This document shows, in pieces, positions 8,412 through 51,979 of a stretch of 64,000 bases of DNA (positions within the stretch are counted from its first letter, which is position 1; every line of letters begins with the position of its first letter). The notes under the pieces were generated by a model. The model was not told the origin of the DNA. It ran no database searches and worked only from the letters and a program-made list of their open reading frames with translations. Origin of the DNA: Gammaproteobacteria bacterium (GTDB lineage: Bacteria; Pseudomonadota; Gammaproteobacteria; Chromatiales; Chromatiaceae); NCBI GenBank assembly GCA_024275295.1, contig JAJRZI010000131.1:1-64000 (forward strand), given 5' to 3'. Position numbers and translations under genes: made by a program.

Positions 8412-9815
8412 ATGCCTGATTCGGCTTTCTCCTCAGCTCCACCCGATTATGAAGATAGTGCTGTGGATCAGCTTCGGATTCCTCCTCACTCTATTCAGGC
8501 AGAACAGTCTGTATTGGGTGGTTTAATGCTGGATAACCTAAGCTGGGATCAGATTGCAGACCGGGTGGGTGAAATAGATTTTTACCGCCGTGAACACCAG
8601 CTTATTTTCAGAGCTATCGAATCACTGGCTGAAGTAAATAAACCCTTTGATATTGTTACCTTATCAGAGGAGTTAAGTCGGTTGGGTGCCTTGGATGAAA
8701 GTGGTGGTCTGGCCTATCTAAGCACCCTGGCAAAAGATACGCCCAGTGCGGCTAATATTCGTGCTTATGCGGATATTGTGCGTGAACACTCGGTTACCCG
8801 CCAACTGATCCATGTGGGTAATGAAATAGCGGACAGTGGTTTTCAGCCTGAAGGGCGCAGTAGCAGTGAGTTGCTGGATGCAGCTGAAAGCAAGGTATTT
8901 GAGATTGCTGAGCAGCGTTACAAATCTGGTGGTGGATTTGAATCGGTTAAAAACCTACTGACCAAGGCAGTGGATAAGATTGAAACGCTGTTTCAACAGG
9001 ATGATCCCATTACAGGTGTGGCAACAGGTTTTGCTGATTTTGATGCGCAGACAGCAGGGCTGCAACCTGCCGATCTCGTAATTGTGGCGGGCCGTACCTC
9101 GATGGGCAAAACCTCTTTTGCGATGAATATTGCTGAAAATGTAGCCATTGGCAGCAAACTGCCCGTAGCTGTGTTCAGTATGGAGATGCCGGGTGACTCG
9201 CTGGTGATGCGTATGATGTCGTCACTAGGTCGCATTAATCAGCAGCGAGTCAGGACAGGGAAGCTGGAGGATGATGAGTGGCCGCGCCTGACAATGGCGG
9301 TAAATCTGCTATCAGAAGCCAAGCTCTACATTGATGATACCCCGGCACTGAGTCCGATGGAGGTACGGGCCAGAGCGCGCCGCCTGATGCGTGACCATAA
9401 AGAGCTGGGGCTTATCGTAATCGATTATCTGCAACTGATGCAGGCACCGGGGGCGGGGGATAACCGCACCAATGAGATCTCTCTTATCTCCCGCAGCCTC
9501 AAGGCGTTGGCCAAAGAGCTGAATGTGCCGGTGATTGCGTTATCTCAGCTCAACCGTGGCCTGGAGCAGCGTACCAATAAGCGCCCGATTATGTCAGATC
9601 TACGTGAATCAGGCGCCATTGAGCAGGATGCTGATCTGGTTGTTTTCATCTATCGTGATGAGGTCTACAACGAAGAGAGCCCGGATAAAGGCATGGCAGA
9701 GATCATTATTGGCAAGCAACGTAATGGCCCTATCGGAACGACCCGGCTGACTTTTCTTGGCCAGTACACCAAGTTTGAGAATTATACGGGTGATGTCTAT
9801 GGTGATCACTACTAA
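8412..9815 (+). CDS. dnaB: Replicative DNA helicase DnaB
   Basis: Hexameric 5'-3' helicase of the replication fork. The 467-residue protein has the N-terminal DnaB domain (PPHSIQAEQSVLGGLML, residues 25-40), a linker, and the RecA-like C-terminal domain with Walker A GRTSMGKTS at residues 227-235, the Walker B region LIVIDYLQLM near 338-347, and the DRRPxxSDLRESGxIEQDAD block (here KRPIMSDLRESGAIEQDAD). Length and motifs are complete, and no intein is present. The start ATG has only a weak ribosome site. The rplI-dnaB-alr order is common in Gammaproteobacteria. Confidence 0.95.
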   Translation: MPDSAFSSAPPDYEDSAVDQLRIPPHSIQAEQSVLGGLMLDNLSWDQIADRVGEIDFYRREHQLIFRAIESLAEVNKPFDIVTLSEELSRLGALDESGGLAYLSTLAKDTPSAANIRAYADIVREHSVTRQLIHVGNEIADSGFQPEGRSSSELLDAAESKVFEIAEQRYKSGGGFESVKNLLTKAVDKIETLFQQDDPITGVATGFADFDAQTAGLQPADLVIVAGRTSMGKTSFAMNIAENVAIGSKLPVAVFSMEMPGDSLVMRMMSSLGRINQQRVRTGKLEDDEWPRLTMAVNLLSEAKLYIDDTPALSPMEVRARARRLMRDHKELGLIVIDYLQLMQAPGAGDNRTNEISLISRSLKALAKELNVPVIALSQLNRGLEQRTNKRPIMSDLRESGAIEQDADLVVFIYRDEVYNEESPDKGMAEIIIGKQRNGPIGTTRLTFLGQYTKFENYTGDVYGDHY

Positions 9816-10052
9816 GCCTAGATTAACCAGTTGACCGCTTTGAGGCGAGCCTAAGTGCGTGATAATAAACAAACCTATCTAAAAGCCAAGTTTCACCTAT
9901 TGGGTGAGGGCGCTACAGCCTGCCCAGCGGCTCTGAGTGCCCGCCTGGCTATGCAAAAAAAATCGTTAAGGAATAATAATGCCATTAACTTATTTTTTTG
10001 CTACGCCAATCAGACACTCAGAACCACTGGGCAAGCTGTTCAACTGATTAAT
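9816..10052. other. Spacer between dnaB and the repeat element
   Basis: These 237 bases between dnaB and the palindromic element show no supported gene. An open frame crosses this spacer and the whole element but has no family resemblance, so I do not call it. There is an 8-A run at 9955-9962 and a 7-T run near 9992-9998 but no clear terminator. Confidence 0.4.
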
Positions 10053-38900: not shown

Positions 38901-40085
38901 CTATTTCTTTTTCTTCCTCGGTTGACCGATGTGTGCCAGAGCGCCCTCAACTTCTACCCCTTTTTTCTGGCTGTGGCAGCGTTTGCAGTCAGCAAAGGTG
39001 AAGGATACTTTGCCATGGCAGTAGCCACAGTTTTCGCCTTTTGACATCCTGACCATTTTTACTTTATTTTTTAGATTATCTGCAAAAATAGCAGGGTGAC
39101 AGGATTTGCATTTGATCCAGCTTGAGTGCACATTATGACTGAAGAGCACATTTTCAAGTTTGCTCTTTGATACAAAAAGGATCTGATTATCACGAATCTC
39201 CTGCTTGTAACCCTCTTTGAGAGATTCGATGGGTTTAAAAATGCCCTTTTCTTTTAAGGTAAGCCAGTCGATAAAACCATATTCATCAACAGGTATACGA
39301 CCATCAGGTAGCTTGTCAGCATTCCACTCAGCACCAACCTGTTTGGCAATTTCCGCAATATGTTTGTTATCGACTTGATCAGCATTATGTAGCCGTTCAG
39401 CTTCAGGTTTTCCAGCAATGTGGCAGCGATCGCAATCCTCTTTGTTGTTGGCTCCAAAGGCAATGGTTCCATTGTGACAGACGCCACACTGTTCACCTGC
39501 TTGGATCTTCTCTTTGGTTATTTCATTTCGCCACCGCTTCATTATAAAGATATCCTGATGACATACAGAGCAGTCGTACCAGATACGGTGAACCCAGTGT
39601 GGATAGATAACAGGTGCTAATCCGGCCTCTTCAAGTTCAGCCTCATGGGTTTTCATAACGAAGTTGCCGAGAAAACGTTCCTCCTTTTTCCACTTCATCA
39701 ATTCGGCTGTGCGTGCAGCCTCTTTCTCGAGTTCTTTTTTGATTAGTTTGTCAATTTTGCGGATAAATTTTTTCCCGCCGCCATGGTAATGCTGGTAACC
39801 AGATGCCATTGCACTTGCAGCATCTAATAGGAACATTCTTCTTCCAATGGAGATGTCATCATCCATGGCATCAATGATCAGGCTGAAAATCTCATCTGCC
39901 ATAATATCCCCACTTTTGAGGATTAAATTTTCTTGTGCTTTAAACTGGAATGTTTTGTAATTGTTGATGAAATTTGTGCGAAATTCACTCTCATCTGCGT
40001 TACAGGTAGTTGTAAATATAGAAATCAGAAGTACCAGGCAACATGAAAAAGCGCATTTGGTTGGGGCTGAGAATCTCATGTGCAT
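38901..40085 (-). CDS. Hexahaem c7-type cytochrome with helical N-terminal domain (paralogue A)
   Basis: Exported multihaem cytochrome of 394 residues. A signal peptide covers about residues 1-30. A haem-free, charged helical domain (about 31-155) precedes two trihaem c7-type domains with CXXCH motifs at 172, 200, 218 and at 326, 353, 367. Each first motif is preceded by a histidine pattern (YPHWVHRIW; FSHNVHSSW). The linker carries DEYGFIDW. The C-terminus is poly-lysine. It is close to the paralogue at 42957-44144 over its whole length, so the two arose by duplication. A GGAG ribosome site precedes ATG 40085. It is separated from the rest of the cluster by the plus-strand cupredoxin gene. 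It is likely an electron carrier in the periplasm or outside the cell. Confidence 0.88.
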   Translation of the reverse strand: MHMRFSAPTKCAFSCCLVLLISIFTTTCNADESEFRTNFINNYKTFQFKAQENLILKSGDIMADEIFSLIIDAMDDDISIGRRMFLLDAASAMASGYQHYHGGGKKFIRKIDKLIKKELEKEAARTAELMKWKKEERFLGNFVMKTHEAELEEAGLAPVIYPHWVHRIWYDCSVCHQDIFIMKRWRNEITKEKIQAGEQCGVCHNGTIAFGANNKEDCDRCHIAGKPEAERLHNADQVDNKHIAEIAKQVGAEWNADKLPDGRIPVDEYGFIDWLTLKEKGIFKPIESLKEGYKQEIRDNQILFVSKSKLENVLFSHNVHSSWIKCKSCHPAIFADNLKNKVKMVRMSKGENCGYCHGKVSFTFADCKRCHSQKKGVEVEGALAHIGQPRKKKK

Positions 40086-40662
40086 GATGTTGCTCCGTAG
40101 CTCTGTGTGGATATTCGCATAAATTGTGTGGTAATACGGCTCAGATAATGCTTTTGCATAACTATCAAGACAGCAGGTTTTCTGTTTTGTTTGGTGTAAG
40201 TTGTTTGTAGAATGGTAACAAATTGCTAATTGTTGAGCATAGTTAATTTATGATTGGCTTCAATGATTTGCTGCAAATTAAGAATTAAGATTTGTTTCAG
40301 CAGAAAACAGGCAGGAGGAGGTGGGTTTTAATTAATTATTGCAATTAAGTGTGTTGTTCGATACGGCATAAAAGTAACGTTTTTAGCCTAAAAACAGACA
40401 ATAAAAATATTGAATTACTGCTTGTGCATGTGATATAAATCCGATAATAATTGATAAAAGTCAATTTATTATCGGATTTATATGTGTGCGATATCCCATT
40501 CTGGGGCCTTAAATCCCTTGGGGTTTTATTCTAGCGGAATTCTGTGGATTGACTTAAAGTATTTCATGTGTTGGTCGAATTTTTAGGTAATATGAGTAAT
40601 AAATTTGTATGTATTGGCAGGTCAGTCTCAAAAGTCAGTAAATATATTGGAGTCCAATTTTT
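40086..40662. promoter_or_regulatory. Divergent regulatory region with long hairpin and FNR-like box
   Basis: This 577-base gap separates the divergent cytochrome and cupredoxin genes. It holds a perfect 17-base palindrome GTTTTTAGCCTAAAAAC (40379-40395). It also holds an 18-bp-arm hairpin (40433-40450 with 40466-40483), whose loop contains TTGAT-AAAA-GTCAA (40451-40464), one base from the FNR/ANR consensus TTGAT-N4-ATCAA. No T-tract follows, so it is not an intrinsic terminator. The setting suggests redox control of the cluster, by inference. Confidence 0.55.
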
Positions 40663-41022
40663 ATGAAAAGATTAGTACCTGTATGTTATTTATTGTGCTT
40701 GAGCATGCTAATCAGTGTGGGACAAGTGGCAGCAGAAGGTAGTACTGTGCATGAAGTTGTGATTCCTGATGGCGTAGATCAATTTATACCAGCGATCATA
40801 ACTATATCGGCTGGAGAGACGGTTCGTTGGGTTAACAATGATACCAAGCAGCCGTCACATGATTTTGCCAGTCTTCCCGGCCCTAATCCGGAAAATAAAG
40901 AGCTGAAGGTGATAGAGTTAAAATCTGGTGAAGTATTTGAGCACACTTTTAATCGCCCAGGTGAATATATCTATTTCTGTTATATCCACAAAGGTATGAT
41001 TGGCAAGGTTATAGTGAAATAG
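40663..41022 (+). CDS. Amicyanin/plastocyanin-like cupredoxin
   Basis: Periplasmic type 1 copper protein, 119 residues with a signal peptide (about 1-24). The copper ligands are all visible: His66 (QPSHDF) and the C-terminal loop Cys106-x2-His109-x2-Met112 (CYIHKGM), the same spacing as amicyanin's loop. Such proteins shuttle single electrons between cytochromes. It is the only plus-strand gene inside the multihaem region, has its own terminator, and is divergent from a hexahaem cytochrome gene, so it is a plausible partner of that system. Confidence 0.87.
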   Translation: MKRLVPVCYLLCLSMLISVGQVAAEGSTVHEVVIPDGVDQFIPAIITISAGETVRWVNNDTKQPSHDFASLPGPNPENKELKVIELKSGEVFEHTFNRPGEYIYFCYIHKGMIGKVIVK

Positions 41023-41063
41023 GGCGGCATACCCTAAGTAGTTCAGCTGAATTTATTATTTTT

Positions 41064-41088
41064 AAGCGGGCATAGCCCGCTTTTTTTG
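41064..41088 (+). terminator. Intrinsic terminator of the cupredoxin gene
   Basis: An AAGCGGGC/GCCCGCTT stem with a 3-nt loop and at least seven T follows the stop by 41 bases. Confidence 0.85.
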
Positions 41089-41094
41089 TACTGA

Positions 41095-41439
41095 TTATTT
41101 GCCCTTGATCTTTGGTAAGACCTCGTGGCAATAGTCACATAGATATAATGGAAAGGCATGGGCGCTATTGTGGCACCCAGTATAGCCACAATATTGCTCA
41201 GTCATGTTGTTTGGCATGTTTATGTCGTTGCTACCTTTCTTGTCGATGAATATTTTTTGGTGGCAGTCATTACACTTGTACAGCTGCTCGTGCAGTTTGT
41301 GCGGGTATGTAACAGCGCCTAAGCCAGCCTCTTTCATGCTGTCAACCTTTGAGTCAATGATAATATTGATTGTATCAATAGCCAATGCGGGTGTAGATAA
41401 AGCGGTAAATAGGGCTGCCGAGTATAATACCTTGATCAT
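41095..41439 (-). CDS. Single-domain trihaem c7-type cytochrome
   Basis: A small exported cytochrome of 114 residues with a signal peptide (about 1-20). It is one c7-type domain: haem motifs at CNDCH 56-60, CGYTGCH 84-90 and CDYCH 101-105. The middle motif has four residues between the cysteines (CX4CH), as found in some cytochrome c3. The GAVTYPHKLHEQLYKCNDCH stretch places His residues ahead of the first haem, as in the larger proteins. It follows the hexahaem gene at 41514 on the same strand with a 74-base gap and is the last gene of this minus-strand run. It may be a soluble shuttle. Confidence 0.85.
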   Translation of the reverse strand: MIKVLYSAALFTALSTPALAIDTINIIIDSKVDSMKEAGLGAVTYPHKLHEQLYKCNDCHQKIFIDKKGSNDINMPNNMTEQYCGYTGCHNSAHAFPLYLCDYCHEVLPKIKGK

Positions 41440-41513
41440 TGTGTTTATTGCTCGTTGCTAAAGATGGCTGCTGGATCGTGGCTGGGTATTGTATGGGGTT
41501 TGTAACTTTTGGG

Positions 41514-42488
41514 CTAGAAAAAATCACTATCAATCTGCTCTTGCTGTTCTGGTTTTTTAATGGGAACAGCGGGAGAGAGAGGAGGGGGTGGTGTTTTTAG
41601 ATGGCGTACCAAGGTTTTTTTATCGATGGGTTTACCTTTTGGATGGTTGTGGCAGCGAGTGCAGTCACTGATAGGAAAGGCTGTTTTATCATGGCACCGA
41701 GCGCACCATTTCCCTTGGCCAATGCCCATCATGGTGATGTTGTTTGCCCCTAACTTATCAATAAATATAGGGCCATCCTGAGTGTCATGACAGATTTTGC
41801 ACTCCAGCCAATAGCTGTGAATATCATGTGGGAAGATAACATCAGGCATGCTCTCTCCCTTGGCGGTAAACAGGATTTTTGTATCTCTCAGTTTGTGCTC
41901 TGATATATCAACCTCTGGGTTGAGGCTCCAAAGTGGTTGGACTATTTTTTTCCGCACGGCAGCTGCCCAGTCCACAAGGCCGTATTTATCGAGTGGTAAA
42001 CCGCTTTTGGCAAGTGCCAAAGGATGCCAGCCTGTACCTATTTCCATGAATTTAGAGTAGGGCTTGGCTGTTGATCCAATTTTCCCAAGTAATATATCTT
42101 GCTTTTCGCCCTCTCTGACTGAGTGTTGAATCGCGCCAGGACTCCAGCCCTCCTCAAGGGAGTGACAGCGCTCACACTCCAGTGGTTCCCAGGCCACGAC
42201 GCCATCATGACATGTGCCGCACTGTTCTTTGTCTTCTGTGATTGTTGACATTGAGATGTCATTTGCGCCGGCTTTTATTTTGAAAATATTTTCGTGGCAA
42301 ACACTGCAGCGGAAGCGAATGCGATGAAACCAGTGGGGAAAGACGACATCATCAACCTCTGCCTCACGCATGGCATCAGCTGTCTTATTTAGGATGATAT
42401 CGCCATATTCCGCATGAACATCTACCGAAAAAAGAACCAGACAGAAAAGTGTAAATTTTGCAGACTGTGATATCAAATGCCTGAACAT
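41514..42488 (-). CDS. Hexahaem c7-type cytochrome
   Basis: An exported cytochrome of 324 residues; signal peptide about 1-26. Two trihaem domains carry CXXCH at 61, 90, 105 and at 230, 262, 276. The first haem of each is preceded by PHWFHRIRF and PHDIHSYW. The interdomain linker contains LPLDKYGLVDW, shared with the other hexahaem proteins here. Unlike the 394-395-residue paralogues it lacks the long helical N-terminal domain and starts its first haem domain soon after the signal peptide. The C-terminal tail is Pro/Lys-rich and disordered. Its closest architectural match in the window is the protein at 45444-46460. Confidence 0.88.
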   Translation of the reverse strand: MFRHLISQSAKFTLFCLVLFSVDVHAEYGDIILNKTADAMREAEVDDVVFPHWFHRIRFRCSVCHENIFKIKAGANDISMSTITEDKEQCGTCHDGVVAWEPLECERCHSLEEGWSPGAIQHSVREGEKQDILLGKIGSTAKPYSKFMEIGTGWHPLALAKSGLPLDKYGLVDWAAAVRKKIVQPLWSLNPEVDISEHKLRDTKILFTAKGESMPDVIFPHDIHSYWLECKICHDTQDGPIFIDKLGANNITMMGIGQGKWCARCHDKTAFPISDCTRCHNHPKGKPIDKKTLVRHLKTPPPPLSPAVPIKKPEQQEQIDSDFF

Positions 42489-42510
42489 CCGGAGGGCCTA
42501 TTTAATGAAG

Positions 42511-42711
42511 TTAACTACATTCATTGATTTTTAGCCTGTATGCAAGCTTCCCTGTTTTTGTCCCGGCTTTTACCTCTGCCTCATCCTCAACCTCTTCACC
42601 AGAGATGTCTCGTAAACCATGAACCATCACGCGAACATAATCCAGCTCATCCTTGCCAGTCTCCTTCCATTCGCCATTATCAGCCTCAATAGCTTTTAAC
42701 TCTGCCATCAT
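42511..42711 (-). CDS. Small unknown protein
   Basis: A predicted 66-residue, acidic protein with no signal peptide or Cys-His motif. Its start overlaps the stop of the preceding small gene (ATGA), and it ends 22 bases before the 41514-42488 cytochrome gene. I recognise no family. The coupling and the lack of any competing frame in this gap are the only evidence that it is real. Cytoplasmic location is inferred from the absence of an export signal. Confidence 0.4.
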   Translation of the reverse strand: MMAELKAIEADNGEWKETGKDELDYVRVMVHGLRDISGEEVEDEAEVKAGTKTGKLAYRLKINECS

Positions 42712-42932
42712 TTCATCAAGTGCTTCTTTTTCGTCAAGTCGAGTCTCTTTTGAGCCAGAAGTTTAAGAATGGTCTTTTTGAAAATAATATTTCTGAATAG
42801 AAAACGATGCTTCCGAAAAAAATTGGCATCCTTAGCCAGGTTTTCGTGGATAGCGGTGATTTGTTGGTTGGTTAGCCGTATGAGCTTCTTATAGAAGCGA
42901 ATATCTTGTGGATGGTTGATTATGCTGCTCAT
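42708..42932 (-). CDS. Small basic unknown protein
   Basis: A predicted 74-residue, Lys/Arg/Phe-rich helical protein with no signal peptide and no haem motif. It starts 24 bases after the 42957-44144 cytochrome gene on the same strand and overlaps the next small gene by 4 bases. No family recognised. It could be a regulator or maturation factor for the locus, but that rests on position only. Confidence 0.4.
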   Translation of the reverse strand: MSSIINHPQDIRFYKKLIRLTNQQITAIHENLAKDANFFRKHRFLFRNIIFKKTILKLLAQKRLDLTKKKHLMK

Positions 42933-42956
42933 AATGATGATCTCATTGGATGAAAT

Positions 42957-44144
42957 TCAGGATGTTTTCTTCTTCTTCTTTTTCTTTGGTTGCCCTATGT
43001 GAAGCAGGGCACCTTCAATCATGACGCCTTTTTCCTGTATGTGGCATCGTGTACAGTCTGCAAATGTAAAAGAGACTTTGCCATGGCAGTGACCGCAGTA
43101 TTGGCCTTTTGACATTCGAACCATTTTTACATTGTTGGTCAGGCTTTTAGTAAATACCTCTGGGTGACAGGATGAACATTTGATCCAGCTTGAGTGTACG
43201 TTATGACTAAAGAGGATGTTTTTGGCCTTACTCTTAGATTTAAAAAGGATCATGTTGTCCCTGATTTCAGGCTCATAGTTTCCATCCAGTGAGTGGATTG
43301 GCTTGAATACGCCTGCCCTTTTCATATTTAACCAATCAATAAACCCAAATCGATCAACAGGAAGGCGTCCATTGGATAGCTTGTCTGCATGCCATTCGGC
43401 ACCAACCTTGTCGGCAACCGCCTTGATTGCTTTGTGATCAATGCGGCTTGCATCGTGTAATCTGTCAGCCTCAGGCTTGCCCGCAAGGTGGCAGCGATCA
43501 CAATTTTCGTTGGTGCCAAAGGCAAGTTCGCCATTGTGGCATCTGCCGCACTGCTGTCCGGCTTCAATTTTCTTGTGGGTGATGTCGTTTCGCCACCGCT
43601 TCATAATGAAGATATCCTGATGACAGACCTTACATTCAAACCAGATGCGATGCACCCAATGGGGGTAGATAACGGGAGCCAGCCCTTTTTCCACCATCTC
43701 TTTTTCGTAGGTTTTCATGACGAAGTTACCGAGGAAGCGTTCTTCGCTATCCCACTTCATCAATTCGGCATTCTTGGCTTTTTCTTTTTCCAGCTCATTT
43801 TTTATGAGTTTGCCAATTTTTCGAAGTAGCTTTTTACCTCCGCCATGATAGTGATTGTAGCCACTGGCCATGGCATTGGCAGCATCCAGCATGAACATTC
43901 TTTGTCCCTGGCTGATGTCAGCAGACATAGCATCGTTAATCAGGCTCTGGATTTCATCAGGCATGATATCCTTACTTTTTTTTATGAGTTCTTCCTGTGC
44001 TTTGAACTGAAACGATTTATAGTTAGTGACAAATTCAATGCGAAAGGGCGTGTCTTCGGCGTAGCTTGCTGTTGAAATAATGAAGACAAAGGGCAGGGCA
44101 GAAAAAAGCCATAGCAACAGATGAAGTAACCTGAGTTGCTTCAT
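42957..44144 (-). CDS. Hexahaem c7-type cytochrome with helical N-terminal domain (paralogue B)
   Basis: A 395-residue paralogue of the protein at 38901-40085. Signal peptide about 1-29; helical haem-free domain about 30-155; CXXCH motifs at 171, 199, 215 and at 323, 350, 364; linker DRFGFIDW; Lys-rich C-terminus. Several stretches are identical in the two, for example YPHWVHRIW, HQDIFIMKRWRN and FSHNVHSSWIKC. Differences are spread over the whole length. This suggests duplication with retained function. It sits between the duplicated helical protein gene and two small ORFs. Confidence 0.88.
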   Translation of the reverse strand: MKQLRLLHLLLWLFSALPFVFIISTASYAEDTPFRIEFVTNYKSFQFKAQEELIKKSKDIMPDEIQSLINDAMSADISQGQRMFMLDAANAMASGYNHYHGGGKKLLRKIGKLIKNELEKEKAKNAELMKWDSEERFLGNFVMKTYEKEMVEKGLAPVIYPHWVHRIWFECKVCHQDIFIMKRWRNDITHKKIEAGQQCGRCHNGELAFGTNENCDRCHLAGKPEADRLHDASRIDHKAIKAVADKVGAEWHADKLSNGRLPVDRFGFIDWLNMKRAGVFKPIHSLDGNYEPEIRDNMILFKSKSKAKNILFSHNVHSSWIKCSSCHPEVFTKSLTNNVKMVRMSKGQYCGHCHGKVSFTFADCTRCHIQEKGVMIEGALLHIGQPKKKKKKKTS

Positions 44145-44216
44145 GTGTTGAGCTCAAATAGCGAATCAGGATCTATCATGGTTAATAAGAGTTCTTTAAT
44201 TTTTATTTGATGTCAT

Positions 44217-45413
44217 TTACTCGTTAGTCTTTTGCCATTCTCTTGCTGATGCTACTGATTTCCTCAAGAATTCAGTTGAGAGTTGGTAGGCTTTTGATGC
44301 CCACTTATATTGTTCTTTTGATTCTGCGTCAATAGCATCAATGCGCTCAGTTTCTGCACGCTTAAATAGCTCTAGAGCTTGGGTGCCGCCTTTACCTTCA
44401 TGAATGCCTCTCTGTTTTGCCCGTTCGAGATAGGCATCGCTTGTAATGCGGGCACTGTCCATTTCATTCTTATCATTTCTAGCTTCAGCTTTTTTTGCTT
44501 GAGCCAGTTTCATCGCATCTTTTAAGGAGCGAGCAAGCTTTTGCAGTGCCCAATAAGCCTCTTCATATTGCTCTTCATCAATCTTGTTTGCAATGGTATT
44601 TATGCGCTTGCGCCCCCGGGCAAAAATAGTGATGGCTTCACTGTTTTCGCTATCTTTAACTTTTTGGGCATTCTTATCTGATAGTTGGCGGGTATCTATA
44701 TATTTGAATTGCCTGATAACCGATTTTTTTAGTTTTTCTGGTGTCATTCCTTTTGGAAGGGTTCTTTTTTCTTCTTTATTGATTTTGCTACTGCTGTAGC
44801 CCTGTCGTTTTGAAATGGCGATGGCTTTTCTTAATAGTTCAGTTGAGCTGAGATAGGCGCTGGTGGACTCTTTATGCTTTCCGCTTTTTTCAAGTTTGCT
44901 GGCTTCTTTGCGCTTTTCCATGGCCTGCTTGAACAGGTTATGCGCTTCCTTGCCACCGCTGCCATCACGGATGCCACGTTGTTTAGCCCGTTCTTCATAA
45001 GCATCACTCTTGATTCTTGCGCTATCCAGATCATGCTTTATTTTTTGAGCAGTCAGGGCTTTTGCGCGTACAAGTTTTGAGGCTGTGCGAAGTGAATTAC
45101 TGAGATCTTTCAGTGCCCAATAGGAGGCTTCCATCTCGCCTTTTTTAATCTGTTCAGCAATAAGATCACGCGTTTTTTTGCTCTCATTCAGAATGGAAAT
45201 GGCTTTATCGTTACCACTGTTTAGGATTTGATCAGCGCTTTTCCCTGAAAGAAGACGTTTATCAATGTATTTAAGCTGGCGATGGACAGACTTTACCAGC
45301 TTGGCAGGTGTCATTTTCTTAGGAAGGGTTCTCTCCTGGGCAAAAGCTAGAGGAGCGGTACATGAGAATAAAAAAAACGTGATGGTTAAGCATCTCAATA
45401 TTCTATTCATCAT
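44217..45413 (-). CDS. Exported haem-free protein of two tandem helical repeats
   Basis: A 398-residue protein with a signal peptide (about 1-25) and no cysteine in the mature part. It consists of two copies of a roughly 185-residue unit. Each begins RTLPKxMTPxKLxKSVxRQxKYID, has a YWALxxLxxSL segment about 70 residues on, and then a DSARIxSDAYxERAKQRGI block with a Gly-rich turn. Both units are predicted to be almost all alpha-helical and highly charged. I do not recognise the family; it faintly recalls YfdX-type periplasmic proteins but I would not assign it. Its place between two cytochrome genes on the same strand suggests a scaffold or assembly role. Confidence 0.75.
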   Translation of the reverse strand: MMNRILRCLTITFFLFSCTAPLAFAQERTLPKKMTPAKLVKSVHRQLKYIDKRLLSGKSADQILNSGNDKAISILNESKKTRDLIAEQIKKGEMEASYWALKDLSNSLRTASKLVRAKALTAQKIKHDLDSARIKSDAYEERAKQRGIRDGSGGKEAHNLFKQAMEKRKEASKLEKSGKHKESTSAYLSSTELLRKAIAISKRQGYSSSKINKEEKRTLPKGMTPEKLKKSVIRQFKYIDTRQLSDKNAQKVKDSENSEAITIFARGRKRINTIANKIDEEQYEEAYWALQKLARSLKDAMKLAQAKKAEARNDKNEMDSARITSDAYLERAKQRGIHEGKGGTQALELFKRAETERIDAIDAESKEQYKWASKAYQLSTEFLRKSVASAREWQKTNE

Positions 45414-45443
45414 GACCGCTCCAGCTAAGTTTGCTATGCCAAT

Positions 45444-46460
45444 CTAGTCATCAAATGTGCAGTCGTCGCTTGCCTTGCATGCAGCAACCTTTTCTCTGTT
45501 ATGGCATTTTTCGCAATCTTCGAGTGGGAATGCAACCTTACCGTGACACTCACCGCAGTACTTGCCTTTGGACATCTCTCTCATGGTCATTGGAGTATCG
45601 CCAGCAGTACGTACAAAGCGTTTCGGGTGGCAGCTCTTGCAGTTCAGCCACCAGGTATGCAGGGTGTGGGGAAAGAGCACTTCTGAAATGGTCTTACTCT
45701 TTACCTTGATCACCATATCTTCAATGTCCTCTTCACCATCAGGATCAAACGCATAGTGAATAGGTGATTCATACAGTGGGTTGTCAGGATCAATGGAACC
45801 CTTTGGCAGAAGCATGCCGTTCTTTGTGATCTTGATCCAGTCTACGAGACCATATTTATCCTTTGGAAGACCTGCCATGGAGAAGGCGCGTGGCTGCCAG
45901 CCGCCACCCCATTTGAAGGCGTTGCCTGATGGCTTGCGGCGATCACCGCGGCCAGCCATTTTGCCGCTACGGCCAGCAAACAGCAGGTTGGCAGGGTTTG
46001 TCTCTTCGGGTGGTGGAGCCGCTTCAGCGTCTAACTGTTCCATTGGATAATAGTGGCAGTTTTCGCACTCAAGTGGATCCCAAGCAACGGAACCGTCATG
46101 GCACATGCCGCATTTTTCGCCGGCACTGATCTGATCCATGTCGACGATGTTCTCACCCTTGTTGGTTACAAAGGTATCTTCGTGGCAGACCTTGCAGCGA
46201 AAACGAATTCGGTGGAACCAGTGTGGAAATACAACGGCTTCTACTTCACCCTCTTCCATACCTTCTCTGGTTCTGGTCATGACGATGTAACCGTATACAA
46301 GGTTTACGGTTTCATAATCAACTACGGGATCAGCAGGAGCTGCTGCTTTAGCGGCAGGTGCAGCTGCTGCTTTTTCAGCAGAATGAACTGCGCCCGCAAA
46401 CAAGAATAGGCCTGTAGTCAGAATGATTGATAGCAGCCTTGTGCTACGCTTAGTCAGCAT
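45444..46460 (-). CDS. Hexahaem c7-type cytochrome with Ala/Pro-rich N-terminus
   Basis: An exported cytochrome of 338 residues; signal peptide about 1-28, then an Ala/Pro-rich linker. Haem motifs are at 89, 117, 132 and at 274, 302, 316, forming two trihaem domains preceded by PHWFHRIRF and PHTLHTWW. The linker contains LPKDKYGLVDW and is longer than in the paralogues (about 137 residues, with a Pro/Glu-rich and a Gly/Arg-rich part). Two extra cysteines near 328 and 334 could form a disulfide. It is the trihaem-pair gene nearest the oxidoreductase genes, so it may be the first acceptor or donor. Confidence 0.88.
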   Translation of the reverse strand: MLTKRSTRLLSIILTTGLFLFAGAVHSAEKAAAAPAAKAAAPADPVVDYETVNLVYGYIVMTRTREGMEEGEVEAVVFPHWFHRIRFRCKVCHEDTFVTNKGENIVDMDQISAGEKCGMCHDGSVAWDPLECENCHYYPMEQLDAEAAPPPEETNPANLLFAGRSGKMAGRGDRRKPSGNAFKWGGGWQPRAFSMAGLPKDKYGLVDWIKITKNGMLLPKGSIDPDNPLYESPIHYAFDPDGEEDIEDMVIKVKSKTISEVLFPHTLHTWWLNCKSCHPKRFVRTAGDTPMTMREMSKGKYCGECHGKVAFPLEDCEKCHNREKVAACKASDDCTFDD

Positions 46461-46499
46461 TACTCTACCCTCCCGGATTTACTTTATTATGGATTAACA

Positions 46500-46529
46500 G
46501 TTCAAAGGGGCTTAAGCGCCCCCTTGAAC
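46500..46529 (-). other. Intercistronic hairpin
   Basis: GTTCAA...TTGAAC with a GGGG/CCCC inner stem lies between the monohaem and hexahaem cytochrome genes. There is no T-tract; it may stabilise or divide the transcript. Confidence 0.5.
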
Positions 46530-46543
46530 ATTGGTGTAGCTAG

Positions 46544-46939
46544 TTACTTCTTGAAGTTACGGATGATGCAGATCAGAGTATGGGCGTCATCTTCAGAGAC
46601 CTCTTTACCTTTTTTGGCGGTACCAGCAGCCCAACCCTTCATTTCGGTGTCTTTACTGCCTTCCATAATGATCTTGTAAAGATCGGCATCGGATTTATCT
46701 GTGCCTGCAACCCAGCTAGGTGGCGCTGGATCCATGCCCTTTGCACCCGGCCCCTTGCCGTTGCCTTTTTTACCATGGCATTTCTTGCACTTCTTTTTGT
46801 AGATCTTTTTCTGTACTGTCTTGACGGCATCCTCATCGTCGCAGTCTGCTGCGGCGACAATGCCAGTGGCCAGACTCATGCTCAGTGCTACTGCTACAAT
46901 GGTGATACTCTTTTTCAATCGCTTCATAGTTTTCTCCAC
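46544..46939 (-). CDS. Monohaem cytochrome c
   Basis: A small exported class I-like cytochrome of 131 residues. Signal peptide about 1-31; single haem motif CKKCH at 51-55, followed by the Gly/Lys-rich HGKKGNGKGPGAKG typical of class I cytochromes; MKGWA near residue 100 offers a Met as sixth ligand. Very basic around the haem edge. Start ATG 46939 or the downstream ATG 46927. In the same run as the pentahaem and molybdenum enzyme genes, it is a likely soluble partner. Confidence 0.88.
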   Translation of the reverse strand: MEKTMKRLKKSITIVAVALSMSLATGIVAAADCDDEDAVKTVQKKIYKKKCKKCHGKKGNGKGPGAKGMDPAPPSWVAGTDKSDADLYKIIMEGSKDTEMKGWAAGTAKKGKEVSEDDAHTLICIIRNFKK

Positions 46940-47003
46940 GGATACTTGATAGTTCTAAGAAGTACAACTTAGTAGCGGTAATCCCCCCCGCTGGTTAATA
47001 CTA

Positions 47004-47084
47004 TATTCATCATAAGCAAATTATGATGAATAGAGCTTTAGAGCAGCCTGGCTGTGGATAAGTTCATATCCACAGCTGGGCTGC
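47004..47084 (-). other. Two strong stem-loops between pentahaem and monohaem genes
   Basis: There is a perfect 12-bp-arm hairpin TATTCATCATAA/TTATGATGAATA (47004-47032), and an 18-bp-arm hairpin with two wobble pairs (47043-47084, GCTGTGGATA and complement near the loop). Neither has a T-tract. They probably act in mRNA processing or partial termination. Confidence 0.6.
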
Positions 47085-47095
47085 ACATTTTGTGG

Positions 47096-47776
47096 CTACT
47101 CTGCTTCCATCTCTGGCCACTCTACATCCTCGTGAACAAGGTTGTAGTGGCAGTTGATGCAGAGAACTTCATCAGCAGTTTTTGCCTTCTTTATTGCGGA
47201 TTGATGCTGTCCGATCTCCTGCCACCATTCGCTTTCTGGTTTGTGGCAGACCTTGCATCGGGCACTTTTATTTTCAACCATTTTCTGGCGAACGCGCGCG
47301 GCCAGTTTAGGGCGAAGTACATTTTCCCACTGATCGATATCACGCAGGCTATTATAGATCGCATGGAACGGACTCTCTCCAAGCGTGCCCTGGTTTAGGT
47401 AAATGAACTTCCAGTGTAGGATTTCCCGTACGCTGTGTGGCTCATGACAGCCCACGCAGCCCGGGCGTACACCGCGTTCATTATCATAGTGTGCAGATTC
47501 ACGGTATTCCTCGTAAGGGTAGGCGTGGCACTCTGCACAGCCAACGGTTACATCGAAGGCACCGGGTTCGAATACTTCTCGGGGTTTGTAGTCTTCGATC
47601 TCTACGCTTGCGGTGCCCATGGGTTTATATTCGTCATAATCAACGAATATTTCATGGCATACAGTACATGCGCTGATTCGCTGGAATCGGTCACTGGTGC
47701 AGCTTACAGCAGACAGGACCAAGACCAGGACGATTGCACCGATGATGATAAGCACACCTTTGGTTATTGTGTTCAA
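47096..47776 (-). CDS. Membrane-anchored pentahaem cytochrome (NapC/NrfH- or ActA-like)
   Basis: A 226-residue protein with one N-terminal transmembrane helix (about residues 7-25) and the haem domain outside. CXXCH motifs lie at 37, 80, 107, 174 and 206. Anchored multihaem proteins of this type take electrons from quinol or link a membrane complex to soluble carriers. NapC/NirT proteins usually have four haems; five haems with one anchor also describes ActA of alternative complex III. The rest of that complex is not encoded here. It follows the molybdenum oxidoreductase gene by about 40 bases in the same direction. Confidence 0.83.
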   Translation of the reverse strand: MNTITKGVLIIIGAIVLVLVLSAVSCTSDRFQRISACTVCHEIFVDYDEYKPMGTASVEIEDYKPREVFEPGAFDVTVGCAECHAYPYEEYRESAHYDNERGVRPGCVGCHEPHSVREILHWKFIYLNQGTLGESPFHAIYNSLRDIDQWENVLRPKLAARVRQKMVENKSARCKVCHKPESEWWQEIGQHQSAIKKAKTADEVLCINCHYNLVHEDVEWPEMEAE

Positions 47777-47815
47777 TCTTCCATCCTCCGTTATCTTGTT
47801 GCTAAGAGAGCAGGG

Positions 47816-50164
47816 TTAACCCATTTGTCTCTTATATATGGCTTCATGTTTGGCGTTATCGACTTTGATGTCGCCATATTTGTCGCCTGATTCTGCAGGT
47901 GAGATCGTTACCACCGTATCGTTCCAGGCCTGTGCCCCAGAGATGGGGTCAATGGCCAGTGGAATAATGTCGTTGGGATTGATGCCGCCATCTCTCCACC
48001 AGAGGTTGTGAAGGATGTCCTCATCTGCCTGTGAGTCATCTACAAGTGGTGTCTTTGCAGTAGGATCTGCTTGCGCAACACGACCATAGGCAGAACGCCC
48101 TACAGAGGTGGAAAATCCGATGACTTGAGGATGAATGCCTTGAGTCAACCAGGCTTTGGTGACCAGGTAGCCAACTTCACTCTTAACCCTGACCAGCTCA
48201 CCATCACCAATCCCCAGTTTCAGAGCAATTTCCTTATTGATCCACAGAGGATTGGCATGCCATAACTCTGATAACAACTTCAGGTTGGATGTGCGTGACA
48301 GGCTCTGATAGCTCACCTTGAAGGTGGTCAAAACAAACTCGTTTGACTTGATGTCAGAGAGCCGTGAGTTCTCTTTCCACGTTGGTGCAGAGATCTCAAC
48401 CTTGCCGGATGGTGTGGCAAATCCAGCTGATTCGTAGGTTTTATACTCAACAGGGATAGGCTCGCCCTTTTTGACAATCCTTCGGGTGTTGGGATCAATC
48501 TTGCCGTAGGCAGGAAAAACACCTTTCTTGAGTTTTTTGTAGGCCTTCTCCAGCCCCGCAGTACCTGTGATCTCTTTTTTGACCCAATCCTTGGCGTTTT
48601 TAAAGGACCAATACTCCTTCATACCGCGACTGCCGTCAGCGTCAATAGTTTCGATGATTTTCTTCAGCGTTTCCCGGACATCTTTTGCCTTTCCGCGGGA
48701 TTTGACACCTGGAATGGTCATGGTGGCCCAGGGGTGCAGTGTTGTCGGGCTACTGCCGACATCATTGCGCTCGATGGCTACCACATCAGGCAGGATGATG
48801 TCTGCCAATTCAGCGGTTTCACTCATGAAGGGGCTGAAGTCAACCAGGTATGGGATCAGGCTCTCATCTTTCAGTACCTCGCGCCAAACGCTTGATGCAG
48901 GAGAAGAGTAGGCTGGATTGCTCATGTGGTTGAACAGTACCTGTACCTTACGCTTGCCGCCTTTTACCTCAAATGGGAAGGTGTGATTTAGCTGACGTGA
49001 GTCACTTCCCGAAGGGAAAGGGGCTGGCTGGAGTGAGGCAATATCGAATTGGCGCGGCAGGCAATTGCCGCCTTCAATATCAATGTTGCCGGTGATGATG
49101 GCCAGAAGCTGAGCTGCTGCCTCTGCATCAACACCGCCCTGATGGAAGCTCAGGCCATTCTGGCTGACGACAGTAGCTGGTTTGTTTTTGGCAAACTCAA
49201 TGGCAAGACGTTTAATATCCTTGGCCGAAACGCCGCTGGCCTTTTGGGCCTTGGCGGGTGTGTATGCCTTCAGTTGCTGAGCTAGTTCATCTGCTGTGGT
49301 ATTGGTCCAGCTATTGATGAAGTCAACATTCGCCAGATTATTTTCCATGATCACATTGGCCATGGCCAGTGCGATGATGCCATCACTGCCTGGAAATACC
49401 GGGATCCACTCATCACTTCTACCTGCGGTGTGCGACATACGCACATCAAAGGTGACGAGCTTAAGACGGTTGTTGACGATGCCATCCGTCAGGCGTTGAG
49501 CCAGCGGAAGGGCTGTCTCAATGATGTTGGCGCCAAAGTTCAGCACATACTTGGTGTTTTCAAAGTCCGGCAGCGTGGAGTCCACACCAAAGGTCTTTTT
49601 AAGTACCGCCTGTTTGGCGACGCTACTGATGGAGGGAACCCGGCTGCGGATGACTGAGCTTGAACCCAGTGTATCCATAAAGCGGGTTGTGCCGCCATCT
49701 TTGAAGGCACCTTCATTAAGATGGACGCTGTTTGGATTGGCATCCACGGCAGCCTTTACCTTCGCAGAAACCTCGGCGATTGCGTCATCCCAACTGATCT
49801 CTGTCCATTGGCCTGAGCCGCGTGGACCAGATCGCTTCATGGGTGCGATGATTCTGTCAGGATCAGAGGCACCAAAGAATGATGCCAGCCCTTTGGTGCA
49901 GAACTTGCCACGGCTTGCTATATGGTCAGGGTTGCCCTCAACCTTTACTATTTCACCAGCTTCTTCGTAGCAGAATCCACCATCAAAATAGGGACACATG
50001 GTGCAAAGATATGGTGTCTTTTTGCGCTCATGAAAGGTCCTGATTTGATGGAAGTCGGCACCGCCGAGCTTAAGCTCCATGGCTGAACCCACGGAGGGGA
50101 CTGCCGCAGCAGTAGTAGCAACTGCGCCTGCTTTTAAGAAGTCACGTCTGTTGATTTTTGACAT
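47816..50164 (-). CDS. TAT-exported Mo-bisPGD oxidoreductase, catalytic subunit
   Basis: Catalytic subunit of a complex iron-sulfur molybdoenzyme in the Psr/Phs/Ttr group, 782 residues from ATG 50164; the frame extends upstream to 50305, but the twin-arginine signal NRRDFLKAGA starts at residue 5 of the chosen form. A [4Fe-4S] site is formed by Cys54, 57, 65 and 89. The segment where related enzymes carry a Cys molybdenum ligand (residues ~155-180, LGSSSVIRSRVPSISSVAKQ) has only serines, and the protein has just one other Cys (GGNCLPRQ). The C-terminal molybdopterin-dinucleotide-binding domain is present. Substrate unknown; sulfur compounds, oxyanions or a reverse role are possible. Operon order: FeS subunit, NrfD, this gene, pentahaem cytochrome. 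Confidence 0.85.
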   Translation of the reverse strand: MSKINRRDFLKAGAVATTAAAVPSVGSAMELKLGGADFHQIRTFHERKKTPYLCTMCPYFDGGFCYEEAGEIVKVEGNPDHIASRGKFCTKGLASFFGASDPDRIIAPMKRSGPRGSGQWTEISWDDAIAEVSAKVKAAVDANPNSVHLNEGAFKDGGTTRFMDTLGSSSVIRSRVPSISSVAKQAVLKKTFGVDSTLPDFENTKYVLNFGANIIETALPLAQRLTDGIVNNRLKLVTFDVRMSHTAGRSDEWIPVFPGSDGIIALAMANVIMENNLANVDFINSWTNTTADELAQQLKAYTPAKAQKASGVSAKDIKRLAIEFAKNKPATVVSQNGLSFHQGGVDAEAAAQLLAIITGNIDIEGGNCLPRQFDIASLQPAPFPSGSDSRQLNHTFPFEVKGGKRKVQVLFNHMSNPAYSSPASSVWREVLKDESLIPYLVDFSPFMSETAELADIILPDVVAIERNDVGSSPTTLHPWATMTIPGVKSRGKAKDVRETLKKIIETIDADGSRGMKEYWSFKNAKDWVKKEITGTAGLEKAYKKLKKGVFPAYGKIDPNTRRIVKKGEPIPVEYKTYESAGFATPSGKVEISAPTWKENSRLSDIKSNEFVLTTFKVSYQSLSRTSNLKLLSELWHANPLWINKEIALKLGIGDGELVRVKSEVGYLVTKAWLTQGIHPQVIGFSTSVGRSAYGRVAQADPTAKTPLVDDSQADEDILHNLWWRDGGINPNDIIPLAIDPISGAQAWNDTVVTISPAESGDKYGDIKVDNAKHEAIYKRQMG

Positions 50165-50180
50165 TGTTCTATTCTCCAAA

Positions 50181-51086
50181 TCAATAGAAGGACTGCATGT
50201 ATAGGCCGCCCATAACCCACCAGATCCGCATGCCGTATACGCCACCGGCCACCAAGAGGGAGGCGCTATATACGCCAAGCCTTGTGCGCTTGAGTGGTGA
50301 TACAAGAATCAGGAGCGGGATAATCAGGCCGATGACGGCTTCTAACCACACATAGGGTGTGAAGAAGATCTCCATCAACACTGTATGGTGACCGATGTTT
50401 TCGCTTGCAGTGCCGTACTGAGTCTGCATGAAGTCGAGGAACAGCAGGAAGCAGTCAAATACGATGCCGTACATCATATACTGTCCCATCTCTTCCATGA
50501 GTGCCCACTTGATTTTCTTCTCCTCTCTCATGAACTGGTTCTGAATCCACAGAACCAGAATCATCAAACCGATACCCGATATAAATGCGCCGGTTAAAAA
50601 TAAGAGTGGTGCAAGTGGCGTATGGTTGATGTAACGACCAGGGTTCAGCTCCATCACCACGCCGGTATACCAGTGTGTTGAGAGGGCAAGCACGATTGCA
50701 ATGATGCCTATGATCTTTGCCCACTTTTGGTCGTTCTTGATGACAAAGTAGGTGTAGACGAACATTGATATCGGGTAGCTTAAGATTAGCAGGGAACCCC
50801 AAGCCATGGGGGCTGTGCCGTGCCAAAAGCCTGGCAACATGAGATAGATAAAGCGGAATGGCTTACCCAGATCCCAGATCAGCAGAACGGGGACGATCAT
50901 CAGCATGGCGATAGCCAGTATTGATGCGGTCAGGGCCAGTGGCTTATAGCGTTTGATGCCGAATACCCAACCAAAAGCGGAGAGTACAAACGAACCGGCA
51001 CTGGCGCCAACGAGCCAAAAGTAGATGGTAATGGGTGTCCCCCACGGATTGTGATGGACGGCGTTATAGGTGATTATGGTTTCCAT
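50181..51086 (-). CDS. nrfD: NrfD/PsrC-family membrane subunit
   Basis: Inner-membrane quinone-interacting subunit, 301 residues with about eight hydrophobic helices. The N-terminal YNAVHHNPWGTPITIYFWLVG contains a PWG-P motif seen in PsrC/NrfD proteins. It would link the quinone pool to the ferredoxin-like and molybdenum subunits. It lies 16 bases before the catalytic gene and 14 bases after the FeS gene. The symbol indicates family only; this is not a nitrite reductase locus. Confidence 0.87.
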   Translation of the reverse strand: METIITYNAVHHNPWGTPITIYFWLVGASAGSFVLSAFGWVFGIKRYKPLALTASILAIAMLMIVPVLLIWDLGKPFRFIYLMLPGFWHGTAPMAWGSLLILSYPISMFVYTYFVIKNDQKWAKIIGIIAIVLALSTHWYTGVVMELNPGRYINHTPLAPLLFLTGAFISGIGLMILVLWIQNQFMREEKKIKWALMEEMGQYMMYGIVFDCFLLFLDFMQTQYGTASENIGHHTVLMEIFFTPYVWLEAVIGLIIPLLILVSPLKRTRLGVYSASLLVAGGVYGMRIWWVMGGLYMQSFY

Positions 51087-51100
51087 TGTAGTCTCCCCCC

Positions 51101-51979
51101 TTATCCAAACAGCAGCTGTTTCAGCGCTGCAACCACATCGTGATACTTATGTTGGATAGACGCCAGGAAGTCGGACATGTTTTTGCCTACATGGTGCATG
51201 GTGTTCTCACCTTCAACGATATCACCGAATGCATCTCCGTGATGGTTACGTTTAAAGGTATTGAACTCTGCCTTCTGCTGGGCTGAACGGTTTTTGTAGT
51301 TATGGGTTTCATCCATGATTTCCCAGTCACCACCGATGTAGTAGACGGATGGGCTTGTTCCAAGTTCAGGTTTCAGTACAGACACCCTCTCTTTTGCAAC
51401 AAGTTTCGCTACTTCGCTCTTGGGGTTGTTAATGTCGCCAAAGACGCGGGCGCCACCTACGCAGGCTTGTACACAAGCAGGTACCAGCCCCTTCTTTACC
51501 CTATGGATACAGAAGGTGCACTTGTCGACAACCAGTTTAGGAAGGTTGTTGTTGGTGCGTTTGGCAGGAAGGAAATGTCTGGCATTGTACGGACATGCAA
51601 CGACGCAGGTTCGACACCCAATACAACGGTTATACCGTTGTAGCACGAAACCCTCTTCATGTTTGAAGGTGGCCTGTGTAGGGCAGTTACGTACGCAGAT
51701 GGGGTAATCGCAGTGATTACACAGGCGAGGCATGAAGATACGTCTGCTGTCTGGATACCTCCCCTTGTCTGCAACCATAACCCATGTTCGCCAGACGCCT
51801 AGAGGAACGCCGTATTCAGCCTTACAAGCTACTACGCAGGACATGCACCCAATGCATTTCCTGAGGTCGATGACCATTGAGTAACGCTTTTTGCCAGGAA
51901 TACCCTTTGTCCCCGGCGTTTGGGCTCCATACTCACGCAGATGGTGAGTGGAACCCTCGTGTTTGTTTTCTGTTGTCAT
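51101..51979 (-). CDS. Four-cluster ferredoxin-type electron-transfer subunit
   Basis: NrfC/PsrB/DmsB-like subunit, 292 residues. I set the start at ATG 51979 (MTTENK, with GGGAG 6 bases upstream) because the longer frame to 52111 adds non-conserved sequence. Four cysteine groups are complete: CIGCMSCVVAC, CNHCDYPICVRNC, CIGCRTCVVAC and CTFCIHRVKKGLVPACVQAC, enough for four [4Fe-4S] clusters. It bridges the NrfD and molybdenum subunits. A C-terminal extension of about 100 residues, His- and Asp-rich, goes beyond the usual NrfC length. It is the first gene of the minus-strand run. Confidence 0.92.
   Translation of the reverse strand: MTTENKHEGSTHHLREYGAQTPGTKGIPGKKRYSMVIDLRKCIGCMSCVVACKAEYGVPLGVWRTWVMVADKGRYPDSRRIFMPRLCNHCDYPICVRNCPTQATFKHEEGFVLQRYNRCIGCRTCVVACPYNARHFLPAKRTNNNLPKLVVDKCTFCIHRVKKGLVPACVQACVGGARVFGDINNPKSEVAKLVAKERVSVLKPELGTSPSVYYIGGDWEIMDETHNYKNRSAQQKAEFNTFKRNHHGDAFGDIVEGENTMHHVGKNMSDFLASIQHKYHDVVAALKQLLFG

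Follow-up and report, generated by a model that had tools for sequence, protein, structure and literature searches.

Alternative complex III (ActABCDEF) is a quinol:cytochrome c oxidoreductase in which a cofactor-less subunit of the molybdenum (Mo) type is combined with iron-sulfur (FeS) clusters, an NrfD-family subunit, a pentahaem cytochrome and a monohaem cytochrome. A similar set is found in QrcABCD, the menaquinone reductase of sulfate reducers, where a multihaem cytochrome accompanies cofactor-less Mo-type, FeS and NrfD-type subunits; this complex has no substrate of its own, and links periplasmic cytochromes to the quinone pool. As described in passages of two papers, QrcB and ActB are cofactor-less relatives of the subunits that carry Mo-bis(pyranopterin guanine dinucleotide) (Mo-bisPGD), and the QrcBCD-like part of a Dehalococcoides dehalogenase complex is a further relative (PMC13059093, PMC6303296). 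Here we describe a gene cluster at positions 38901-51979 of a 64,000-nucleotide (nt) stretch, called the window throughout, from contig JAJRZI010000131.1 of a Gammaproteobacteria bacterium (Chromatiaceae; assembly GCA_024275295.1). We think it rather probable that the core of this cluster works as a quinol:cytochrome c oxidoreductase, that it is based on a molybdoenzyme which is now catalytically dead, and that in the window's lineage it is coupled to a relay of c7-type cytochromes.

The oxidoreductase genes lie on the minus strand, beginning with a four-cluster FeS subunit of the DsrO/TtrB/NrfC-like type (51101-51979, starting at ATG 51979, with 4Fe-4S Pfam matches) and a 301-residue NrfD/PsrC-type membrane quinone subunit (50181-51086; PF03916, E=1.1e-32). 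These are followed by a Mo-bisPGD-type large subunit of 782 residues with a twin-arginine translocation (TAT) signal (47816-50164; PF00384, PF01568, PF10518), a membrane-anchored pentahaem cytochrome of the NapC/NirT type (47096-47776; PF03264, E=1.3e-27; 5 CXXCH), and a class I monohaem cytochrome c (46544-46939; PF00034, E=5.7e-7). An earlier, sequence-only reading of the window had recognized here the FeS, NrfD and TAT-exported Mo subunits of a complex iron-sulfur molybdoenzyme (CISM)-type enzyme, and Pfam and NCBIfam profiles bear out each of these parts.

This gene content is like that of alternative complex III and predicts a similar activity, but the window's pentahaem is of the NapC type, its FeS and Mo-type subunits are encoded by separate genes, and its NrfD subunit has ∼7-8 hydrophobic helices (7 hydropathy peaks above threshold, by a crude method) rather than 10. 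QrcD also has 10 helices, and the window complex differs further from QrcABCD in its likely direction, which is opposite, and in its occurrence in Proteobacteria, often near nir genes. When scored with the QrcB model (NF041783, cut-off 440), the window's large subunit reached 165.5 bits and its Cys-type relatives (see below) 160, compared with 324 for L045, a locus judged Act/Qrc-type by eye from the pentahaem and FeS frames beside it. In the tree described below, L045 falls outside a 34-row clade (100/99) that contains the window protein. The QrcB score and the placement of L045 thus set the window complex apart from the ActB/QrcB lineage, with the ActB comparison made through L045, a single row on a long branch, and the QrcB comparison through the NCBIfam model, since none of the 55 sequences listed by a profile search of the PDB was named ActB or QrcB. 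We read the complex as one that may work like alternative complex III or Qrc, but is of separate origin.

Among catalytic families, the thiosulfate/polysulfide reductases PhsABC and PsrABC scored best (PhsA, 261 bits against a cut-off of 694; best PDB match 2vpw, PsrA-type), but the window complex differs from these in the loss of the Mo-ligand cysteine (Cys), in the replacement of the third Cys of the FeS0 cluster by Asp, in the addition of the pentahaem, and in that no chaperone gene was found. DsrMKJOP is also similar in part, as the FeS subunit passes the DsrO cut-off (NF045797, 204.1 against 200 bits), having scored 215 bits with TtrB (cut-off 416). DsrP is the best NCBIfam model for the NrfD subunit, yet scores 67.7 bits against a cut-off of 350 (NF045798), and no DsrM, K or J genes were seen by eye in the cluster; in the NCBIfam tables examined, no subunit other than the FeS protein passed an equivalog cut-off. 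The quinol dehydrogenases of the NapC/NirT group (NirT, CymA) share the PF03264 domain and anchor helix (here a single hydrophobic helix at 8-26) with the window's pentahaem, which differs in its additional N-terminal haem motif and its NrfD-FeS-Mo-type partners. NirT serves the cd1 nitrite reductase in other denitrifiers. Models of tetrathionate, arsenate and selenate reductases were far under cut-off, and sulfite-oxidising SoeABC was set aside as a cytoplasmic enzyme without a TAT signal.

To call the large subunit a molybdenum enzyme, as the sequence-only reading did, is right by family, but its Mo-ligand Cys is missing. Residues were compared in an alignment of 45 rows, in which the clade comprises members of 60-100% identity; L115 and L116, whose Mo-type genes are cut by contig ends, were left out of this test, and no count includes L015, where the L011 region is present as a broken second copy and a transposase-like gene was seen by eye. 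The Mo-ligand column held S, N or G in all 20 full-length clade members, and never Cys. It held Cys in all of the 10 nearest comparison relatives, which we name Cys-type for that residue, and in 7 of 9 more distant rows, L045 and L048 being the two without. FeS0 reads CxxCxxxD...C, rather than four Cys, throughout the clade (20/20), and in a sister group at 35-41% identity (L111-L114) the Mo Cys is lost and Cys 2-4 of FeS0 are lost too. In a maximum-likelihood tree of 42 rows (L115, L116 and L037 left out), all 24 Cys-less rows group together (100/100), and this clade lies amid Cys-type, PhsA-like rows (100/98); the root is drawn at the midpoint and outgroup branches are long, with the nesting read from the starred inner branches and from the outgroup joining at the Cys-type side.

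The loss extends beyond the ligand itself. There are 130 columns invariant in the Cys-type set, which as outgroup did not include L045 and L048, both Cys-less; at least 90% of the clade retains the residue at 92 of these, and less than 10% at 13. Ten of the 13 lost columns are R, K, H, E or C, compared with 26 of the 117 others (Fisher p 1.4e-4, with classes chosen after viewing), and the bias persists without the ligand Cys (9/12, p 3.9e-4) or with D added (p 0.0037). The reverse comparison was unbiased: 28 columns are invariant in the clade and absent from the Cys-type set, and 32% of them are charged or Cys, compared with 28% of the rest. This pattern suggests that the Mo-type subunit has kept its fold and much of its pterin-binding frame while expected active-site residues have preferentially gone, and the subunit seems to have lost its active site. 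Such a complex would be free of Mo. An AlphaFold model of the subunit (13 aligned sequences) had a mean predicted local distance difference test (pLDDT) value of 42.8, and was not used.

Loss of the Mo-ligand Cys goes along with two changes in the neighboring genes. Of 11 Cys-type loci, 8 have a gene for a TorD-type chaperone (two of these were tested, and match PF02613); the misses are L017, L019 and the 3.2-kb L037. A profile built from the eight chaperones had no match at E <= 1 in the sequence fetched for 26 Cys-less loci, many of which have short flanks, so that a missing chaperone here means one missing nearby. At all 22 clade loci, and at all four sister loci (30-32% identity), the large subunit is followed by the NapC-type pentahaem. 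None of the 11 Cys-type loci has it alongside, the nearest case being a 28% match ∼9 kb off at L016. The sister cytochromes carry 7 CXXCH in all four (L111-L114; G478, G475, G583, G090), and at L114 a single protein joins the pentahaem to two class I cytochrome c domains, a natural fusion that we read as marking the electron step from pentahaem to monohaem.

The complex is spread across several groups. A scan of named genomes gave 27 loci, with matches at 63-92% identity in metagenome-assembled genomes labelled Gammaproteobacteria, Sedimenticola, Magnetococcales, Rhodospirillaceae and Halieaceae. In evenly drawn samples searched at E <= 1e-120, with two candidates scored per genome, 7 of 369 genomes from the class gave a match, as did 15 of 398 from the phylum. 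Of these matches, 3 from the class sample and 11 from the phylum sample sorted into the clade, and the rest were Cys-type relatives and sister rows. Within the window's own genus, 5 of 6 genomes encode the large subunit, the one without it being G004 (94% complete). A locus labelled Candidatus Polarisedimenticolaceae (L005, JAKISI010000039.1) has the cluster at ∼90% large-subunit identity, and probably represents a mislabelled or contaminated bin. On viral contigs, 13 pattern stretches were seen, and none was confirmed.

A frequent neighbor of the core is a cytochrome cd1 (NirS-family) gene. Leaving aside the window's genus and G017, a close relative, 14 of 16 clade loci have such a gene at a distance of 0.9-3.8 kb from the large subunit. 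The cd1-family genes of the 14 loci are 50-77% identical to NirS2 of the window genome, and the monohaem c partner of NirS2 is likewise found in the flank of 14/16 loci. At the two loci without NirS, the contig begins inside NrfD (L010) or stops 1.15 kb past the large subunit (L102). In the window genome, NirS2 and its monohaem c, to which the cluster's monohaem c is 33% identical, lie on another contig (L079), and a second NirS lies on a third (L080) with NirF-, NirN- and NirJ-like genes, named by eye or position. No NirS was found in the stretches fetched for the window-type loci, of which there are six (G017 and five of the genus). In the genome-neighborhood survey that the sequence-only reading had suggested, c7 hexahaem cytochromes accompany the core in 6/6 window-type loci, and a cd1 gene accompanies it in most of the other clade loci. 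Cupredoxin-like genes recur near the core (L004, L005, L006, L010, L011, L110, and the window's own), and are possible soluble electron carriers. Inspection by eye also revealed a cytochrome b-like gene (∼500-530 aa) with a small companion near core or nir clusters at L102, L103, L107 and L109.

We propose a mechanism in which the NrfD and FeS subunits would oxidise quinol, and electrons would pass through the FeS clusters to the membrane-anchored NapC-type pentahaem, with the dead Mo-type subunit serving as a scaffold that holds the parts together. The pentahaem would then reduce the monohaem cytochrome c, which is of class I. The electrons would finally be used, in most relatives, by the cytochrome cd1 nitrite reductase encoded nearby, and in the window's lineage a periplasmic string of c7 trihaem proteins might act as an electron store and as a relay to periplasmic acceptors. 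We infer both the direction of electron flow and, for the window's genus, the final acceptor.

Several observations weigh against this proposal, some of which concern the electron route and others the large subunit. The 16 loci surveyed for the nir linkage are not independent, several being of one family, and one locus, L011, has no NrfD, and its FeS gene is cut to a fragment (9586-9968) ahead of an intact large subunit, because of either a deletion or an assembly fault. Other multihaem frames are present at 3 of 11 Cys-type loci (L016, L017, L038), so the Cys-less loci are not alone in having cytochromes. In the window's genus, NirS2 is found in just one of the five core-bearing genomes (G000, that of the window), and also in G004, which has no core; in the four remaining core-bearing genomes there are two NirS-family genes each, both 43-46% identical to NirS2, and the pairing of core with NirS2 that we had expected within the genus was not found. 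A bc1 Rieske gene is present in 6/6 genus genomes, so the core is not the only quinol:cytochrome c route there. It is also conceivable that electrons run the other way, as in Qrc, which reduces menaquinone from cytochrome c3: periplasmic cytochromes would gather electrons from sulfur compounds, hydrogen, formate or the outside, and the complex would reduce quinone. The equal architecture of QrcABCD, the resemblance of the c7 string to an electron-collecting cytochrome pool, and the constant company of core, c7 hexahaems and a helical protein in 6/6 window-type loci all fit such a direction. We nevertheless regard it as unlikely, because the neighbor in most related loci is a cd1-family gene, that is, an electron acceptor, and because no periplasmic dehydrogenase or hydrogenase was seen by eye to adjoin the core among the neighbors listed, no family search having been made.

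With regard to the large subunit, the FeS0 Asp is shared by 9 of 10 Cys-type relatives (L014, L016, L017, L036, L038, L085, L086, L117, L118), so Asp alone is no proof of cluster loss, and FeS0 could be held by three Cys and the Asp. For only 6 of the 13 changed columns do all four sister rows lack the conserved residue as well. Most of the Cys-type invariant columns (92/130) are retained, as is the TAT signal, the molybdopterin and dinucleotide-binding Pfam domains score well, and binding of a pterin, or even of Mo, is conceivable with no ligand from the protein. Arsenite oxidase AioA holds Mo without an amino-acid ligand. These features would suit a working molybdoenzyme that acts in this manner on some substrate. 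Such an enzyme is rather improbable, however, since the ligand position drifts among S, N and G instead of being settled, conserved His, Arg and Glu columns have changed alongside, FeS0 is lost in the sister group, and the AioA model gives only 30 bits. The 0/26 count for TorD-type chaperones in Cys-less loci and the absent Cys (20/20) likewise count against the catalytic Mo oxidoreductase, with its own substrate, that the sequence-only reading had envisaged, and we favor a complex devoted to electron transfer from quinol to cytochrome c.

Beyond the monohaem gene, the minus-strand run continues with a row of c7 cytochromes. These are T6a, a hexahaem protein with two c7 trihaem domains (45444-46460; TIGR04257, E=2.9e-38, 2 stretches), T6b, with an extra N-terminal stretch and two c7 domains (42957-44144; TIGR04257, E=1.5e-37), T6c, with two c7 domains (41514-42488; TIGR04257, E=3.4e-31), and a 114-residue trihaem protein with 2 CXXCH and 1 CX4CH (41095-41439; TIGR04257, E=2.7e-15). 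Convergent with the trihaem gene is a plus-strand cupredoxin of the plastocyanin/azurin type (40663-41022; PF00127, E=4.5e-11), and between the two is a terminator-like hairpin with a T run (41064-41082). The hairpin is suggestive only, because such sites were no commoner in the window than in shuffled sequence (18, compared with 14.8 +/- 3.6 expected). A fourth hexahaem gene, T6d, whose product is 70% identical to T6b, lies beyond on the minus strand (38901-40085; TIGR04257, E=2.3e-36). The single minus-strand run claimed at first therefore holds from 51979 to 41095, which is likely the extent of the operon, with 27 haem motifs, but not for the plus-strand cupredoxin; T6d is separated from the run by this gene and the hairpin, and so is probably a transcript of its own.

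The inventory of cytochromes in the sequence-only reading (an anchored pentahaem, a monohaem, four paired-trihaem proteins and a trihaem protein), as well as the cupredoxin, was correct, and so was its total of 33 haem motifs, which on recounting comprise 32 CXXCH and the one CX4CH of the 114-residue protein. Residue shuffling gave no more than 0.05 CXXCH expected per protein, and in the whole window the stop-to-stop frames of at least 90 codons with at least two CXXCH numbered six, all within the cluster. The pairing of c7 domains was also upheld, as TIGR04257 ('nanowire_3heme') matched twice in each of the four hexahaem proteins and once in the 114-residue protein, at 56 to 130 bits in the five proteins (curated cut-off 40 bits). 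Each trihaem-domain protein has one N-terminal hydrophobic stretch of the signal type, fitting periplasmic proteins.

Domains of the TIGR04257 family are known from long Geobacter cytochromes. The window proteins share TIGR04257/PF14522 domains, tandem in four of them, with the Geobacter c7 proteins and UetDEG, but have the domains in pairs only, are coupled to a CISM-type module, and come with no porin that we could find. According to passages of one report, Gallionella and Tenderiales have UetDEG proteins of the trihaem kind (PMC10734462). An extracellular route, in which the complex and its 33 haems trade electrons with the outside through a nanowire or conduit, would draw on the paired c7 domains, on the occurrence of c7 trihaem proteins in the Uet pathway (PMC10734462) and on a second c7 locus, elsewhere in this genome, that includes a cytochrome b-like protein, but is very improbable, given that no cytochrome of the cluster has more than 6 haem motifs, that its trihaem proteins carry only the N-terminal hydrophobic stretch, that MtrB/PioB porin was found in 0/6 genus genomes (with no control genome reaching the model cut-off, and Uet-type porins not searched), and that the relatives' core lies near cd1-family genes with nothing recognized as extracellular nearby. 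Electron import or export across the cell surface, which the sequence-only reading had offered in both directions, thus found no positive evidence, and a periplasmic relay fed by quinol is the reading that we retain.

The second c7 locus (L077, G000:C158, 8045-14603) encodes a hexahaem protein 49% identical to T6b, three proteins that have a single c7 domain, a further protein with 6 CXXCH, and a cytochrome b561-like protein (PF01292, under cut-off). The c7 pool may therefore join two quinone modules, the core and the cytochrome b locus of L077. A similar c7 row is present on G004:C169, in the genome without the core. One more c7 trihaem domain was found amid otherwise unrelated genes (L078, G000:C28, 6485-7113), where it is split between two overlapping frames in the window genome, and lies in a longer frame (228-240 aa) in other members of the genus.

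Within the run, and not named in the sequence-only reading, is a haem-free secreted-type protein of 398 residues (44217-45413, minus strand), composed of two all-helical repeats that are 50% identical. Its AlphaFold model has good helices (pLDDT 86.5; predicted template modeling score, pTM, 0.39), no Pfam family matched at E <= 0.001, and 0 of 59 matches in a PDB structure search reached E <= 0.001. This protein, T6a and T6b are kept in 6/6 window-type loci, and the trihaem gene in five, L018 ending first. A small open reading frame of 74 residues (42708-42932, minus strand) has tblastn matches of 45-74% at the other four core-bearing loci of the genus, in the close relative G017, and at one nir-linked locus, where the match is 45% and lies near the core of G247 (L116).

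The sequence-only reading did not recognize the combination as a described system, and we likewise found no prior description of the module in the titles, abstract beginnings and passages that we covered of the open-licence PMC literature. In the portions consulted, a Magnetococcales genome paper reports a second nirS adjoining a NirC-like cytochrome, with 'NrfD' absent from that text (PMC6783814), and the text of a NirS phylogeny paper contains neither 'molybdopterin' nor '4Fe-4S' (PMC10999283). Our results raise the possibility of a respiratory oxidoreductase with an origin apart from those of bc1 and alternative complex III, in which the active site of a PhsA-type enzyme would have been lost a single time and a NapC-type pentahaem acquired. 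The complex would have spread across Proteobacteria, feeding cd1 nitrite reductase, and in one lineage have been re-attached to a c7 relay; we put this history forward tentatively, as it could well be otherwise. Family models alone would label such a complex a molybdopterin oxidoreductase. If the proposal is true, this would be a further, separate loss, indicating that catalytic CISM complexes can repeatedly become pure electron-transfer complexes, and the relatives would form a testable series, from those with the Mo Cys, through Cys-less forms with a partial FeS0, to Cys-less forms without FeS0. The complex would also be a candidate quinol dehydrogenase for the cd1 nitrite reductase in Magnetococcales and other Proteobacteria.

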